Positions 30,240 through 35,976 of a stretch of 64,000 nucleotides of DNA are shown in pieces. Positions within the stretch are counted from its first letter, which is position 1. The number at the start of each line of letters is the position of its first letter. The stretch is taken from NCBI RefSeq assembly GCF_023022985.1, contig NZ_CP095461.1:1798001-1862000 (forward strand), written 5' to 3'. The position numbers and the translations under genes are program-made. The notes beneath the pieces are model-generated. The model was not told the origin of the DNA. It did not search any database and was given only the letters and a program-made list of their open reading frames with translations. The stretch is from Arthrobacter gengyunqii (GTDB lineage Bacteria > Actinomycetota > Actinomycetes > Actinomycetales > Micrococcaceae).

Positions 30240-31928
30240 GTGAATAGAACACCTGCCGCATTGAAAGCCCCCCGGGAACTCGCCAATGGAACCATGCGTA
30301 TTGTCGCGCTGGGTGGTATCGGTGAAATCGGCAGAAACATGACCGTCTTTGAGTATGACGGCAAACTGCTGATTGTTGACTGCGGCGTGCTTTTCCCTGA
30401 GGAAATCCACCCCGGCGTCAACCTGATCCTGCCTGACTTCTCCTACATCCGGGACCGCCTGGATGACGTCGTGGGTGTCGTCCTGACCCACGGCCATGAA
30501 GACCACATTGGCGGCGTCCCCTACCTGCTGCGCGAACGCGCGGACATTCCCCTGATCGGCTCCAAGCTGACCCTGGCGTTTGTTGAAGCCAAGCTCAAGG
30601 AACACCGCATCACCCCGAAGCTGATCCAGGTCAAGGAAGGCGACCGCCGGACCATGGGCGGCTTCGACCTGGAATTCGTGGCCGTTAACCACTCCATTCC
30701 CGATAGCCTGGCCGTTGCCATCCGCACCCCTGCCGGCATGGTCCTGCACACCGGTGACTTCAAGATGGACCAGTTCCCGCTGGACCGCCGCATCACCGAC
30801 CTGGCCGGTTTCGCCCGGCTTGGCGCCGAAGGCGTGGACCTTTTCCTCACCGACTCCACCAACGCCGATGTTCCCGGCTTCATGGCATCGGAGAAGGAAC
30901 TGGCTCCCGCCATCGACACGGTGTTCCGCACCGCGCCGCGCCGGATCATCGTGTCCAGCTTCGCCAGCCACATCCACCGCATCCAGCAGGTTATCGACGC
31001 TGCCGACCGCTACAAGCGCAAGGTGGCCTTCGTGGGCCGCTCGATGGTCCGCAACATGACCATCGCGGAGGAACTGGGCTACCTGAACATCCCCAAGGGC
31101 CTCCTGGTGGACTTCAAGCAGCTGCAGCGTTCCGATGACCACAAGGTGGTGCTGATCTGCACCGGTTCGCAGGGCGAGCCGCTGGCTGCGCTGTCCCGCA
31201 TGGCCAACAAGGACCACGCGATCCGCATCCATGAGGGCGACACCGTCCTGCTGGCCAGCTCGCTGATCCCGGGCAACGAGAACGCCATTTACGGCGTCAT
31301 CAACTCCCTGACCAAGCTGGGCGCCAACGTGGTGCACAAGGGCAACGCCAAGGTCCACGTTTCCGGACACGCCAGTGCCGGTGAACTGGCCTACTGCTAC
31401 AACATCGTCAAGCCGCGCAACGTCATGCCGGTCCACGGCGAATGGCGCCACCTGAAGGCCAACGCAGCCATCGCCGTTGCCACCGGCATGGACCCGCGCG
31501 ACGTCGTTATTGCCGAAGACGGCGTCACCGTGGACCTGCGCCGCGGCCGTGCCACGGTCTCAGGCAAGATCCCCGTGGGCCTGGTCTTCGTGGACGGCGA
31601 CAGCGTCGGCCACACCACCGAGGACGACCTCAAGGAACGCATGCAGCTCTCCGAGCAGGGTTCCGTCACGGTACTGGCCCTCATCGATCCGGACACCAAC
31701 ACGGTTGCCGAGCCGCCGGAGCTCTTCATCAAGGGGTTCGCCTGCAGCCCGGGCGACGTCAAGAAGGCTGAAGCCGCCATCGAGAAGGCCATCAACGACG
31801 CCGCCGGCCGCGGCCGCGGCGGGCGCGGCGAAGAGCCGGAAGCCATCATTGAGCGGTCCACCGCCAACTGGATGCGCCGCTTCTACAACCGCACGCCGGC
31901 CATCACGGCCATTGTCGTGGATGCCTAA
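30240..31928 (+). CDS. rnj: Ribonuclease J
   Basis: 562 residues, full length. The metallo-beta-lactamase metal site reads H84-x-H86-x-D88-H89, with later ligands in H-T-G-D-F-K-M-D and the beta-CASP motif H-V-S-G-H-A-S. RNase J has endonuclease and 5'-3' exonuclease activity and matures rRNA and turns over mRNA. The GTG start gives a usual N-terminus. In many actinobacteria dapA precedes this gene; here it does not, and it looks monocistronic between two terminators. Confidence 0.95.
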   Translation: MNRTPAALKAPRELANGTMRIVALGGIGEIGRNMTVFEYDGKLLIVDCGVLFPEEIHPGVNLILPDFSYIRDRLDDVVGVVLTHGHEDHIGGVPYLLRERADIPLIGSKLTLAFVEAKLKEHRITPKLIQVKEGDRRTMGGFDLEFVAVNHSIPDSLAVAIRTPAGMVLHTGDFKMDQFPLDRRITDLAGFARLGAEGVDLFLTDSTNADVPGFMASEKELAPAIDTVFRTAPRRIIVSSFASHIHRIQQVIDAADRYKRKVAFVGRSMVRNMTIAEELGYLNIPKGLLVDFKQLQRSDDHKVVLICTGSQGEPLAALSRMANKDHAIRIHEGDTVLLASSLIPGNENAIYGVINSLTKLGANVVHKGNAKVHVSGHASAGELAYCYNIVKPRNVMPVHGEWRHLKANAAIAVATGMDPRDVVIAEDGVTVDLRRGRATVSGKIPVGLVFVDGDSVGHTTEDDLKERMQLSEQGSVTVLALIDPDTNTVAEPPELFIKGFACSPGDVKKAEAAIEKAINDAAGRGRGGRGEEPEAIIERSTANWMRRFYNRTPAITAIVVDA

Positions 31929-32079: not shown

Positions 32080-33033
32080 CTACGGATGAGCCTGGAGCAG
32101 GTCGGCCTCCCGGGCTTTGCTCCAGGAGCGGGCATAGAGGCCAAGGGTGGCCTCGTCCCGTACCGCAAGGCCAAGCCGGTTGAGCAGCTCATTGCTCTGA
32201 TACATGGTCAGTTGCTGGGCACTTCGGCTGACTCGTTCCTTGTCCGCGCGGTACAAGTATGCATCGATGGCCTGGGACCACTTTCTCCGCCAGTTTTCCA
32301 CCGCCGGTTCCGAAGCGGTTGCCGCCATCAGACGGTGGGCAGAAACGATCCGGGGAGCCATTCGGGTGACAAGGGCTTCGCGCCTTTGTGCAGCCTGCGG
32401 GCCGAAGTGCCCGGTACTGCTGCGCAGGTGGCTGTCCCAGTAGTAGTCCCAGGAAATACTTCTGCGGTCAGGCCAAACGGACGAATGCGGACCGGACATC
32501 ATTGCGTGGCAGGTATCGAAGAGCAGCAGCGACGCCAGAGTGGCACGGCTGTTTACAGTGGGAAAGCGGGACAGCGCCCAGGCGGCAAGGGCCGAGGACA
32601 CCTCGCAGACTTCCGCTGCCAGGTGAAGGCCCTCCACTCCGCCGTATTTGGCCAGCGCAGCCTCAAAACCAGGTGTGACGGTCGTCTTTCCCCAGCGGGT
32701 GGAAGGGGGAGCAGCCGTATAGTCGGAAATGACCATCGCGCCCATCTCCCCATGGGACTGGTCGACCAGTGCCTGGCTGAATGACCGCAGGCGGTCAAAA
32801 GCGGCCCGCGGAGCAAGGGCTCCGAAATGTACAGATGGCGCAGCCGGGTTCAAGGAGCGCGTATACGCCCACCGTTCGGCGCCCCAGACCCGGGCCTGCG
32901 CAGCGAGCGGCGTCACAATACGACAAACCACCGCGTCACAAATTTCCTCCGTTTCAGGCTGAATAGTCAGCAACCACCACACGGTTTCGTTGTTTAGCCG
33001 CCTGGAACCGGTGCCGGCAATCAATTGACTCAT
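32080..33033 (-). CDS. Stand-alone lantibiotic-dehydratase C-terminal-like protein (thiopeptide-type bacteriocin biosynthesis domain)
   Basis: 317 residues, the size of single-domain proteins of this group. The N-terminus W-W-L-L-T-I-Q-P, the E-R-W-A-Y-T-R-S segment near 58-65 and especially K-Y-G-G-V-E-G-L-H-L-A-A-E-V (about 137-150) followed by alternating helices resemble the SpaB_C/TIGR03891 domain, which eliminates glutamate from glutamylated Ser/Thr or, in thiopeptides, forms the pyridine ring. The start is the ATG five bases after GGGAG; the frame runs open to 33294 without a better start. No LanB glutamylation domain, cyclase or transporter lies nearby. Recognised by pattern only. Confidence 0.5.
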   Translation of the reverse strand: MSQLIAGTGSRRLNNETVWWLLTIQPETEEICDAVVCRIVTPLAAQARVWGAERWAYTRSLNPAAPSVHFGALAPRAAFDRLRSFSQALVDQSHGEMGAMVISDYTAAPPSTRWGKTTVTPGFEAALAKYGGVEGLHLAAEVCEVSSALAAWALSRFPTVNSRATLASLLLFDTCHAMMSGPHSSVWPDRRSISWDYYWDSHLRSSTGHFGPQAAQRREALVTRMAPRIVSAHRLMAATASEPAVENWRRKWSQAIDAYLYRADKERVSRSAQQLTMYQSNELLNRLGLAVRDEATLGLYARSWSKAREADLLQAHP

Positions 33034-33488
33034 CTTTCTCCCAATTTCCTGTCGAATCGGTCGCTGACTTTGCCGGCGATGGCTAACCTTTCCACCGTGA
33101 TAAGCGTTACACACATTCGACAGACCCGGCTGATTCACGACTGCAATCACATTAAGATTGGGAAACAAATTCCCAAAGTAATCCACCACCGCTTCCCCGG
33201 CTTCCCCGTGGATGGGCGGGAAGGTCAAGGACCACCAAGCCCTTGCCGCCTTGTTATATGCTCCGAATGGATGCGTCGCAGCCGGATGCACCATGTCCCC
33301 ACATATTTAGTCTCGAGGCGGCTGCATACACAAACACCTGCATCTCAGAATTTCCACACCTTCAGCGCGACACCAGCTTTCCCGGCGGAAATAACTCGAA
33401 GATCGAGAAACCAATTGTCCAAACCAAGCACGTATAATCACACGCGAACCAGGCCGCCGTCGACTCAGGTTGGATCGGTGAAAACCGG
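33034..33488. other. Atypical divergent intergenic region
   Basis: 455 bases, AT-richer than the chromosome. They hold an inverted repeat TTGGGAA / TTCCCAA (33158-33176) and two tiny minus-strand frames: 33254-33343 (29 codons, ending G-A-S-G-C-D-A-S-I-R-S-I) and a 28-codon frame whose stop overlaps the start of the dehydratase-like gene (M-C-V-T-L-I-T-V-E-R). Neither has a clear ribosome site. Confidence 0.4.
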
Positions 33489-33995
33489 ATGACAGCAGGC
33501 TCATGGGTTCCGGACGCCGCTGCATTTCTCAGCAGCGACCTCAGCAGTTCTTTCGGCGGGGTTGAGTTTCAGATTGCGGCGTCGCAGGTTTTTGCGAGCT
33601 CCGGCATTGCCGTGTCCTGGACCGACGGACCGCCGCTCTATGCCGTCGAAATCGTCGTGGCCCGGTCGGCCTGCCGGTTCGAGTTGGTTCAATGGGGCGC
33701 CCAGACTAGTCAGGTCGCGGGCATCGTGACCAAGAGGCGCACTATGAGCCCGCATGCCGAGGCAAAGATCCTGAGTTTGCTGGCGGATGCCCTGGGAACG
33801 CATGAACTGGATGCCGAGCACGTCCATCCAACCCCGCCGCTCCTGACCGAGCCGGGAGACCGCGTCGAAATGGGAACGGTCCCGGAATTCCTGGATCTCC
33901 TCTTTGAGCGAATGACCTTTTGCCGGGAATGCCCCGCTCCCACCTCAGGCGGAAATGTGCTGTGTCCCTGCATCAAACTCCGCTCCCAGCGCTGA
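33489..33995 (+). CDS. Protein of unknown function with Cys-rich C-terminus
   Basis: 168 residues. I recognise no family. The central part has mixed strand and helix composition (Y-A-V-E-I-V-V-A-R-S-A-C-R-F-E-L-V). The C-terminus carries C-x2-C, then, 14 residues on, C-x-C (F-C-R-E-C-P, L-C-P-C-I-K), which could bind a metal or be modified. No signal peptide or membrane helix. It diverges from the dehydratase-like gene over a shared regulatory region, so the two may work together; this is only inference. The ATG lacks a strong ribosome site. Confidence 0.55.
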   Translation: MTAGSWVPDAAAFLSSDLSSSFGGVEFQIAASQVFASSGIAVSWTDGPPLYAVEIVVARSACRFELVQWGAQTSQVAGIVTKRRTMSPHAEAKILSLLADALGTHELDAEHVHPTPPLLTEPGDRVEMGTVPEFLDLLFERMTFCRECPAPTSGGNVLCPCIKLRSQR

Positions 33996-34229: not shown

Positions 34230-34315
34230 TCTTCTTCGACTTCCTCGCGCTGGCCCTGGCGGCAGCCGCAGCATTTTATCTGCTCGCGGCACTGATCCGG
34301 CCGGAGCGTTTCTGA
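34226..34315 (+). CDS. kdpF: Potassium-transporting ATPase small subunit KdpF
   Basis: 29 residues, one membrane helix, ending L-I-R-P-E-R-F, the usual KdpF C-terminus in actinobacteria. GTG start within the previous stop; its own stop overlaps the kdpA ATG (TGATG). KdpF stabilises the KdpFABC complex. Confidence 0.88.
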
Positions 34316-35976
34316 TGGGCGTTTGGCCGGCCGTGGCATCCTTCCTGGCGGTCGCACTGCTGCTGGCGGCTCTTTACCGTCCGCTGGGCGATTACATGGC
34401 CCGGTTGTACTCCACGGACAAAAACCTGGCGGTGGAACGCGGGTTCTACCGCGTGATCGGCGTGGATCCCGGATCCCGTCAATCGTGGCAGTCCTACCTG
34501 CGCAGCATCCTGGCCTTCTCCGCCGTCGGACTCCTGCTCGGGTACGTGCTGCAGCGTACCCAGCAGCTGCTGCCCGGGTCGCTGGGTCTGCCTGCCGTAC
34601 CTGAAGGCCTCGCCTTCAATACGGCGGCGTCATTTGTCGCCAACACCAACTGGCAGTCCTATTCACCCGAAGTGACGGTGGGTTACATGGTCCAGATGGC
34701 AGGACTGGCTGTCCAGAACTTCCTTTCGGCAGCTGTTGGCCTGGCTGTAGCCGTTGCCCTGGTCCGGGCTTTTGCGTCCCGGAAGGAAGCGACGATCGGC
34801 AACTTCTGGACGGATATGACTCGGTCAGTGGTGCGGCTGCTGCTGCCCATCGCCTTTGTCAGTGCGCTGCTGCTGCTTCTGGGCGGCGTCGTCCAGAACT
34901 TCAACGGCTTCACCTCCGTAACCGGCCTCGCCGGCGGCACCTCTACGATTCCCGGCGGTCCGGTAGCGTCCCAGGAAGCCATCAAGCTCCTGGGAACCAA
35001 CGGCGGCGGATTCTTCAATGCAAACTCCTCCCACCCGTTCGAGAACCCGTCCGCCTGGACCAACCTGCTGCAGGTGGTGCTGATGCTGGTCATTCCGTTC
35101 AGCCTGCCGCGCACCTTTGGAACTCTGATCGGAGACCGCAAGCAGGGATACGCGATCCTGGCGGCCATGGCCACTATCTTTACCGTTTCCCTCGCGGCCA
35201 TGACAGCCCTCGAATTCTCTGCTTCATCGGCCCTGGCCGGTTCCATGGAAGGCAAGGAGCAGCGGTTCGGCATAGCCGGATCCACCCTGTTCGGAACCAC
35301 CAGCACGGCCACCTCCACCGGCGCCGTGAACTCGATGCATGACAGCTTCAGTCCGCTGGGCGGCATGATGGCCATGCTGAACATGATGCTCGGCGAAGTG
35401 GCTCCGGGCGGGGTGGGATCAGGCCTCTACGGCATGCTGGTCCTCGCCCTGGTGGCCTCCTTCATCGCCGGTCTCCTGGTGGGGCGCACGCCCGAATATC
35501 TGGGCAAGAAGATCGGCCCCCGCGAGATCAAGCTGGCCAGCCTTTACCTGCTGACCATGCCCACCCTCGTCCTGGCCGGCACGGCACTGAGCTTCGCCGT
35601 TCCGGGCATCCGCGAGGACGTTCAGGGCACGTCCATCTACAATCCCGGACTGCACGGTTTCAGCGAAGTGCTGTACGCCTTTACCTCGGCGGCCAACAAC
35701 AACGGATCGGCATTTGCCGGCTTGACGGCGAACACACCGTGGCTGAACACGGCACTGGGCCTGGCCATGCTGCTGGGGCGGTTCCTGCCGATGATCTTTG
35801 TATTGGCGCTGGCCGGCTCGCTGGCCGCACAGGACCGGGTCCCGGTGACCGCGGGAACGCTTCCCACGCACCGCCCCCAGGCAGTGCTCATGCTCTGCGG
35901 CGTCACCGTCATTGTGACTGCCCTGACCTTCTTTCCCGTACTCGCGCTGGGTCCCCTGGCGGAAGGGTTGCTCTGA
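34315..35976 (+). CDS. kdpA: Potassium-transporting ATPase subunit KdpA
   Basis: 553 residues, about ten membrane helices. The four selectivity-filter loops of the K+-transporter superfamily include [15 protein letters not shown] (about 223-237) and [10 protein letters not shown]. KdpA is the channel-like subunit that binds K+ with high affinity from outside. It follows kdpF with a one-base overlap, and kdpB starts two bases after its stop. Confidence 0.96.

Follow-up and report, generated by a model that had tools for sequence, protein, structure and literature searches.

The window analyzed here is a stretch of 64,000 nucleotides from Arthrobacter gengyunqii (RefSeq assembly GCF_023022985.1, contig NZ_CP095461.1, forward-strand positions 1,798,001 to 1,862,000), and the subject is a divergent gene pair within it. 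On the minus strand, at 32080..33033, lies a gene for a stand-alone SpaB_C-fold protein (SBC) of 317 residues. On the plus strand, at 33489..33995, lies a gene for an LPD29-like protein of 168 residues with a C-x2-C / C-x-C tail. Both open reading frames (ORFs) are present as described in the initial annotation, which had proposed a possible locus for a ribosomally synthesized and post-translationally modified peptide (RiPP) around an orphan lantibiotic-dehydratase C-terminal-like protein. The start ATG of SBC at 33033 agrees with the MSQL... start of its homologues, and an alternative longer frame of 404 residues is also present. The 455-bp intergenic region (33034..33488), in which both promoters presumably lie, is AT-richer as annotated: its GC content is 53.4% compared with 64.6% for the window, and only 3 of 1271 overlapping segments of that size were equally low. 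A precursor with Ser/Thr and Cys was sought in this divergent gap, where alignment of three loci revealed no conserved small ORF. Compared genomes and loci are given below by G and L numbers, with G000 as the window genome.

The predicted structure of the window SBC showed a clear SpaB_C fold, and PF14028 (SpaB_C / Lant_dehydr_C) matched it at 26.0 bits, barely above the cut-off of 24.4. The proposed resemblance to a stand-alone SpaB_C domain was thus borne out by structure prediction and by one of the two suggested profiles. The other, TIGR03891, gave no match to the window protein at E ≤ 1 but did recognize the core paralogue of G000 (51.7 bits; cut-off 48.45), a core SBC scoring 75.1 bits with PF14028. 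Scores with TIGR03891 descend in steps, from 84 and 88 bits for two canonical SpaB_C proteins through the Arthrobacter core copy to none for the window copy.

SBC is not an orphan. Homologues were found in 33 of 59 genomes: all 29 of the genus, 4 of 8 others of the family, and none of 22 from other families. Among the matches listed from protein databases, named relatives were mostly from Arthrobacter, with a few of Streptosporangiaceae type at about 30% identity; the nearest to the window SBC among these matches was from A. jiangjiafuii (90%). We gathered 97 SBC reading frames, with start codons picked by script, and defined clades on a single FastTree run of 96 of them plus 10 outgroup proteins. 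The tree separated 27 core copies, one per genome, from 12 second copies and from a P clade of 51 paralogues with support 1.0, which is found in 22 genomes with up to five copies each and includes the window SBC. The remaining seven comprised six SBCs outside the three clades and one 238-residue fragment excluded from the tree. G000 itself has five P-clade copies, one core copy, and a short fragment; fragmentary paralogues also exist in other genomes. At the B-class SBC loci (G000:C1:3610410 and orthologues), the upstream blocks GTGCAACTAGT..CTCGG and GGCGTG.CTGCTGGAAG.AT.TGAGCCTGACGGCA were kept in most of eight aligned loci.

To place the elimination-site residues, SBC proteins were aligned to canonical relatives and to NisB. 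R784 and R786 were located through the NisB alignment, and H961 through an HM..NR motif common to MibB in a weak but co-linear segment. The equivalents of R784, R786, and H961 were R, R, and H in 11/11 outgroup sequences and 12/12 second copies, and R/K, R/K, and H in 26 of the 27 core copies. In the P clade, all three were kept in 0/51 and none in 39/51. The window copy has H, G, and N at these positions, and so lacks both R786 and H961, which elimination requires. The E823 position is occupied by D in 26/27 core copies and by A in the window copy; at R826, the window copy has K, as do all 11 outgroup sequences. The NisB mutants R786A, R826A, and H961A keep glutamylation and lose elimination (PMC4979651). 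NisB H961A retains peptide binding (PMC4341554), so a binding-only role for the SpaB_C fold has a precedent in mutants. The sequence does not support an elimination-type RiPP locus that is active here: the window SBC has all three residues changed, and the alignment of the gap showed no conserved small ORF.

The enzyme that would glutamylate a lanthipeptide precursor had been noted as absent nearby, and it was not detected anywhere in the genome. PF04738, the glutamylation half of LanB, was sought in G000 and 28 relatives without a match (0/29), the control genomes of that search likewise giving none. A search of two genomes found it in G033, a member of the family with a split LanB, and not in G000, where a very divergent homologue could escape.

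The core SBC lies outside the window in a conserved cassette. It comprises a divergent TrmB-like/LuxR regulator (REG), a peptide gene (PEP), the core SBC, and usually a 63-residue ORF (SO), which is helix-turn-helix-like by eye and has no Pfam support. REG matched GerE and DUF7436, with TrmB below the cut-off in a relative and no TPR among the listed families. PEP is a tiny ORF with a ribosome-binding site, found upstream of 27/27 core SBC genes, on the same strand and at a common spacing of 88-148 nucleotides before the SBC start codon. Its product ends in W[DE]W[FIL], as in MKSWDWF, MTKVWDWI, MTSKVWDWL, MEKATGSTVSIKSWEWF, and similar peptides. No ORF with a W.W end and ribosome-binding site was found upstream of the second copies (0/12) or the P-clade copies (0/51). 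The PEP stop codons differ (TAA, TAG, TGA) at a constant position, as expected for a translated gene. The core cassette thus has a conserved small peptide gene adjoining a regulator, one of the features of peptide signalling. No Ser, Thr, or Cys position is conserved in the PEP of core loci; a Cys tail is carried by the LPD29-like partner of the window SBC. The core copies that retain the elimination residues adjoin Trp peptides lacking such positions, which likewise gives no support to an active elimination-type RiPP locus around the window pair.

A further 62 named loci were fetched by core alignment; they overlap in species with the G genomes, and the two sets were not summed. PEP was found by pattern in 52/62, and in L146 by eye. 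Within the fetched flanks, REG and SO were each present at 50/62, and the nine loci without PEP were also without REG and SO. Outside the clade of the window, PEP is a precursor of about 33-93 residues. It carries between one and six W[DE]W motifs and mostly a hydrophobic, signal-like start; signals were called by eye or with a crude rule on hydrophobicity. A. subterraneus, for example, has SWDWPK twice and strain H20 has NWEWPK three times, and VWDWPQQ occurs in four copies in YR2113-J and in six in L203. The codons of the repeats differ in L194 and L195; the six repeats of L203 are identical in DNA, which indicates that recent amplification also plays a part. An ORF ending in GGIYDWPTVA stands in the place of PEP at L043 (G036), and L279 (G115), from a more distant genus of the family, has REG, an SBC of 30% identity, and the ORF MTASAARRIWAWPESWPILGRK. 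One locus titled Vibrio cholerae strain 35D (L152; WNZI01000025.1, 284-3047) carries an Arthrobacter REG-peptide-SBC-SO cassette with the peptide ..SWDWPKSQPTAGSWDWPK, and looks like a mislabelled or contaminated assembly.

The core SBC could be a true modifying enzyme acting on PEP, for instance on the acidic residue between the two Trp, which would make PEP a new RiPP and the window copy a decayed relative. The elimination-site residues retained in the core and second copies speak for this reading. The core SBC score above the TIGR03891 cut-off and the common strand and spacing of PEP and SBC agree with it, as does the acidic residue that separates the two Trp in each of the 27 core peptides of the genus and in the 52 named ones. 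Variants without that residue exist, however (WGW in L041, WAW in L279), and the cassette showed no further enzyme of modification. Precursors of Sec type are unusual in cytosolic RiPP maturation, and canonical elimination requires glutamylated Ser/Thr, for which no domain was detected. We regard an enzymatic core SBC as a serious but unlikely explanation.

PEP could also be a regulatory leader of the SBC operon, acting as an attenuator or ribosome-arrest peptide and not as a product. In the clade of the window, PEP is as short as seven codons, has two Trp codons, and ends 88-148 nucleotides before SBC, and a short CCCC/GGGG inverted repeat was seen by eye after it. We consider a leader very improbable. 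In other Arthrobacter lineages, PEP begins like a signal peptide and its motif is repeated in tandem up to six times, and REG relatives at other loci lie opposite Trp peptides that look secreted and are encoded on the other strand. The stem after the PEP stop scored on average 13.9 at the 52 named loci compared with 11.2 for shuffles and 13.8 for the next 34 nucleotides, and on average 14.9 of 50 shuffles scored at least as high. The inverted repeat was accordingly rejected as a general RNA element, its scores being barely above shuffles, and Rfam gave no family match on L031, L047, or L113.

Sequences close to GGGGGAAGCTTTCGGAGTC were kept upstream of the PEP micro-ORF in all 27 aligned core loci (L031-type) and are a candidate operator of REG. 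The 18-base core of this sequence was searched in the whole G000 genome with up to three mismatches; one exact site, at the core locus, and four sites with three mismatches were found, compared with two for the reversed control. A regulon of this 18-mer including the window pair was rejected. In the stretch that separates PEP from SBC, core loci also share a CCAGCGGCGGTAACC-like sequence immediately ahead of the SBC ribosome-binding site.

At the 30 best REG loci, SBC and PEP were adjacent in 28, the other two being those of G006 and G010. The class is rich in REG homologues, and in many of them the match is confined to the LuxR part. Among 29 distant REG loci, a divergent secreted-looking ORF with a Trp motif was found at 7. 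The final secretion rule was fixed after these 29 loci, which were first viewed with a looser rule. We then took 40 fresh loci from the top of the match list, among matches not yet represented by a locus (seven entries of that part of the list were passed over, and some matches cover only part of the query). A secreted-looking divergent small ORF lay upstream at 16/40, compared with 0/40 in the mirrored downstream stretch, a control that compares unlike DNA (the 3' side, often coding). Trp was present in 16/16 of these ORFs and within the last 12 residues in 13; the 16 come from 12 genomes, many alike, and are not independent. Overlapping stretches were L246 with L268 among the 40, and L252 with the earlier L216. 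Repeated motifs among the REG-linked peptides included DSGWTS..DSGWTN, DSIWS, DLGWNT, and TTAWE. SBC was absent within about 1.5 kb at all 29 distant loci and is thus not essential to REG-peptide pairs. These patterns suggest that the peptide and REG are the older pair and SBC a later addition. A different arrangement of the SBC and REG families was seen at L278 (G072:C1:447000-452000), with an SBC-like gene containing HM..NR, a membrane-like protein, and a 47-residue ORF ahead of a same-strand REG homologue.

Regarding the LPD29-like protein, both Cys motifs were found in its tail as annotated, and only C-x-C was invariant in 35 aligned rows, often after a Gly-rich stretch; no tail Ser or Thr was conserved. 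A Pfam scan of the window protein gave no match, and its likeness to PF18847 (LPD29) comes from relatives. The best ones scanned scored 26.0 and 23.8 bits with that profile, below the cut-off of 27, and PF18847 is pre-computed in a database for several relatives. The AlphaFold2 model had a predicted local distance difference test (pLDDT) score of 81.5, with the tail (residues about 149-168) under 50, and a fold search of the PDB returned nothing at E ≤ 0.001. Relatives occur in 8/59 genomes, all of the genus of the window. The comparison across Arthrobacter genomes that the initial annotation had called for showed that 8 genomes encode this protein divergently to a P-clade SBC; the 10 loci concerned fall at two unrelated chromosomal sites. 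We took it as the partner of SBC because it is divergent at 10/10 of its loci and the two sites are non-orthologous.

The same recurrence at 10 loci would fit a partner that is itself the substrate, a folded leader domain with a flexible Cys-rich tail bound by SBC in a RiPP-like pair. The predicted disorder of the tail, the frequent Gly-rich stretch, and the invariant C-x-C end point in that direction. The lack of a conserved Ser or Thr in the tail, the lost elimination residues of the window SBC, the absence of any other modifying enzyme adjacent to the pair, and the presence of the partner without SBC in two genomes at the site of the window (see below) all speak against it, and we think it very unlikely.

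The pair occupies a variable site between the genes for ribonuclease J (30240..31928, plus strand) and KdpA (34315..35976, plus strand), both assigned by Pfam. In this interval, SBC and the partner are present in G000 and G019, and the pair with other genes in G003; the partner without SBC is found in G006 and G010, and a different P-clade SBC without the partner in G001. Gene content between 31928 and 34315 also varied among congeneric genomes in other respects, with DinB-like, SnoaL-like, and amylase-like ORFs (named by eye). Pairwise NG86 estimates of synonymous divergence (dS) between G000 and G019 were 0.125 for SBC and 0.117 for the partner, compared with 0.307 for ribonuclease J, 0.67-0.70 for three kdp genes (0.702 for kdpA), and 1.214 for the core SBC. 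Because the dS of the pair is far below that of the flanks and of the core SBC, the simplest reading is that the pair moved between species as a unit.

Such mobility raises the possibility of an exchangeable conflict or selfishness module beside kdp. Besides the low dS of the pair and the differing genes of the interval, the Pfam name of LPD29 refers to large polyvalent proteins, which belong to a mobile-element context. PADLOC gave no match for SBC or the partner (weak matches to REG were uninformative), no toxin-like domain was recognized, and the partner stands without SBC in G006 and G010. We judge a conflict module improbable.

The ratio of nonsynonymous to synonymous divergence (dN/dS, by the same method) was 0.41 and 0.27 for the window SBC and 0.09 and 0.08 for core copies of the same genome pairs. 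Together with the changed R784, R786, H961, and E823 equivalents and the fragmentary paralogues elsewhere, this higher ratio favours a functionless remnant, one of the options offered in the initial annotation. The lost catalytic residues fit that option. The rest does not: the frame is open in G000, G019, and G003, dN/dS is below 1, SBC and the partner share a low dS and apparently moved together, and two unrelated sites have the divergent arrangement in common. A remnant without function is improbable, though slightly less so than a conflict module, and another option, a new use of the fold, gained support. The window SBC is apparently a worn-out, exchanged copy of a lantibiotic-enzyme relative; most likely it binds peptides without catalysis, together with the CxC partner.

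A 381-residue family lies upstream of the P-clade SBC on the same strand at 7/7 of the P-clade loci where this family occurs, in 7 genomes (e.g., G012:C1:3242917 and G019:C1:1732268). Other recurring P-clade neighbours, at up to 10 loci and mostly in mixed orientation, are dehydrogenase-like, MOSC-like, and methyltransferase-like proteins, among others (named by eye).

We propose the following model. SBC would derive from the elimination (SpaB_C) domain of class I lanthipeptide and thiopeptide enzymes, and one orthologue in Arthrobacter sensu lato would have been recruited into a peptide-signalling cassette. PEP would be exported and trimmed to short Trp peptides, which would re-enter the cell and be sensed by REG, the putative controller of the PEP-SBC-SO operon. 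The core SBC may bind the same peptide and possibly act on it. Duplicated paralogues have lost elimination-site residues and would have left the cassette, and one of them, the window SBC, would work beside the divergent LPD29-like CxC protein as a non-catalytic peptide binder. Sequence itself shows the fold, the family, the residue loss, the expansion of paralogues, and the conserved cassette; exchange of the pair between species (from dS), secretion, sensing, peptide binding, and whatever the window pair does are inferred. That the core SBC belongs to peptide signalling and the window SBC is a non-catalytic, peptide-binding paralogue that left the cassette has, in our estimate, about an even chance of being right.

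Several observations weigh against this model. The Trp peptide is upstream of none of the 51 P-clade copies, which ties the window copy to the peptide by descent only, and since the exact 18-mer occurs in G000 solely at the core locus, no regulon shared with the window pair is visible. In the clade of the window, the PEP signal sequence is lost and export there is unexplained; the loss falls in the very clade where SBC paralogues multiplied and fits any simple model badly. The same is true of core SBC genes that seem interrupted, in two pieces, in G004 (G004:C8:1067243-1068198) and G013 (G013:C1:357558-358501), where PEP is intact, as is REG in G004. The R784 position is occupied by Q in one core copy. 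REG is missing from the fetched flank at three named core loci, and REG of G006 and G010 is about 9 kb away from the core SBC. The crude calling of signal peptides also counts here, the L114 and L279 precursors having no clear signal, as does the unlike DNA of the downstream control. By the rule, no secreted ORF was found at 22/29 distant REG loci or at 24/40 fresh ones, and SBC is missing within about 1.5 kb at all 29 distant loci; of 12 further REG loci of the same family, a clear Trp precursor was present in L279 only.

The small, often secreted-looking Trp-rich peptides with their regulator nevertheless look like an undescribed bacterial peptide-signalling system. A broader conjecture, which we offer tentatively and which may well fail, is that Actinobacteria have a widespread undescribed pheromone system, in which secreted precursors with Trp motifs, single or in tandem (WDWPK, DSGW, DTVWD, NDSIWS), are sensed by divergent TrmB-like/LuxR regulators. 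In Arthrobacter, the SpaB_C fold would be the handler of W[DE]W peptides and would have radiated into catalytically dead, horizontally exchanged paralogues, such as the window SBC, which perhaps bind the peptide as decoys or new receptors. If the cassette does signal, Actinobacteria would have a peptide language whose precursors carry repeats, with a single candidate receptor family and a test compound that is simple to make; it would also be an instance of the fold of a RiPP enzyme becoming a handler of peptides. Lantibiotic or thiopeptide enzyme is the usual annotation of a stand-alone SpaB_C gene; this genus-wide family seems to be something different, which would correct many annotations and genome-mining calls.

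SBC belongs to a known fold family in a new context, and no description of the cassette was found in open-licence literature. Among the listings and abstracts seen in open-licence PubMed Central, which leaves closed journals and preprints mostly outside its scope, nothing was found on WDWPK-type peptides, on actinobacterial TrmB/LuxR-peptide pairs, or on a LuxR gene accompanying a stand-alone SpaB_C. A study of the luxR genes of Arthrobacter UMCV2 (PMC9659744) has, in its accessible portion, no mention of lantibiotic, thiopeptide, or TrmB.

Compared with the elimination domains of NisB and MibB (PF14028, TIGR03891), SBC differs in being stand-alone in a genome without a detected glutamylation domain, and the window copy further in its H, G, and N at the three positions and its lack of a TIGR03891 match. 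The likeness to TbtD and PbtD, the thiopeptide [4+2] pyridine synthases, is one of fold only, and no precursor of thiopeptide type stood out at the loci read. A stand-alone SpaB_C gene is also found in split class I LanB loci, which fall as the outgroup in the SBC tree. The locus L044 of G033 is of this kind, with an 826-residue LanB-N, a 328-residue SpaB_C, and two precursors containing Ser, Thr, and Cys; the Arthrobacter SBC cassettes differ in lacking a LanB-N gene and carrying a Trp peptide. Biarylitide-type microgenes encode precursors of a few codons beside one enzyme, a P450. The core cassette is alike in its few-codon precursor beside one enzyme, and differs in that a SpaB_C fold replaces the P450 and that relatives of PEP are full signal-peptide-like precursors. 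The RRNPP quorum-sensing pairs of Firmicutes (PMC10075063) likewise place the gene of a small secreted propeptide next to that of a candidate intracellular regulator. REG differs in being TrmB-like/LuxR (GerE) without a TPR match, unlike the TPR receptors of RRNPP pairs; the cassette differs in carrying an extra SBC gene and in belonging to Actinobacteria, whose signals are, according to the same paper, typically small molecules.

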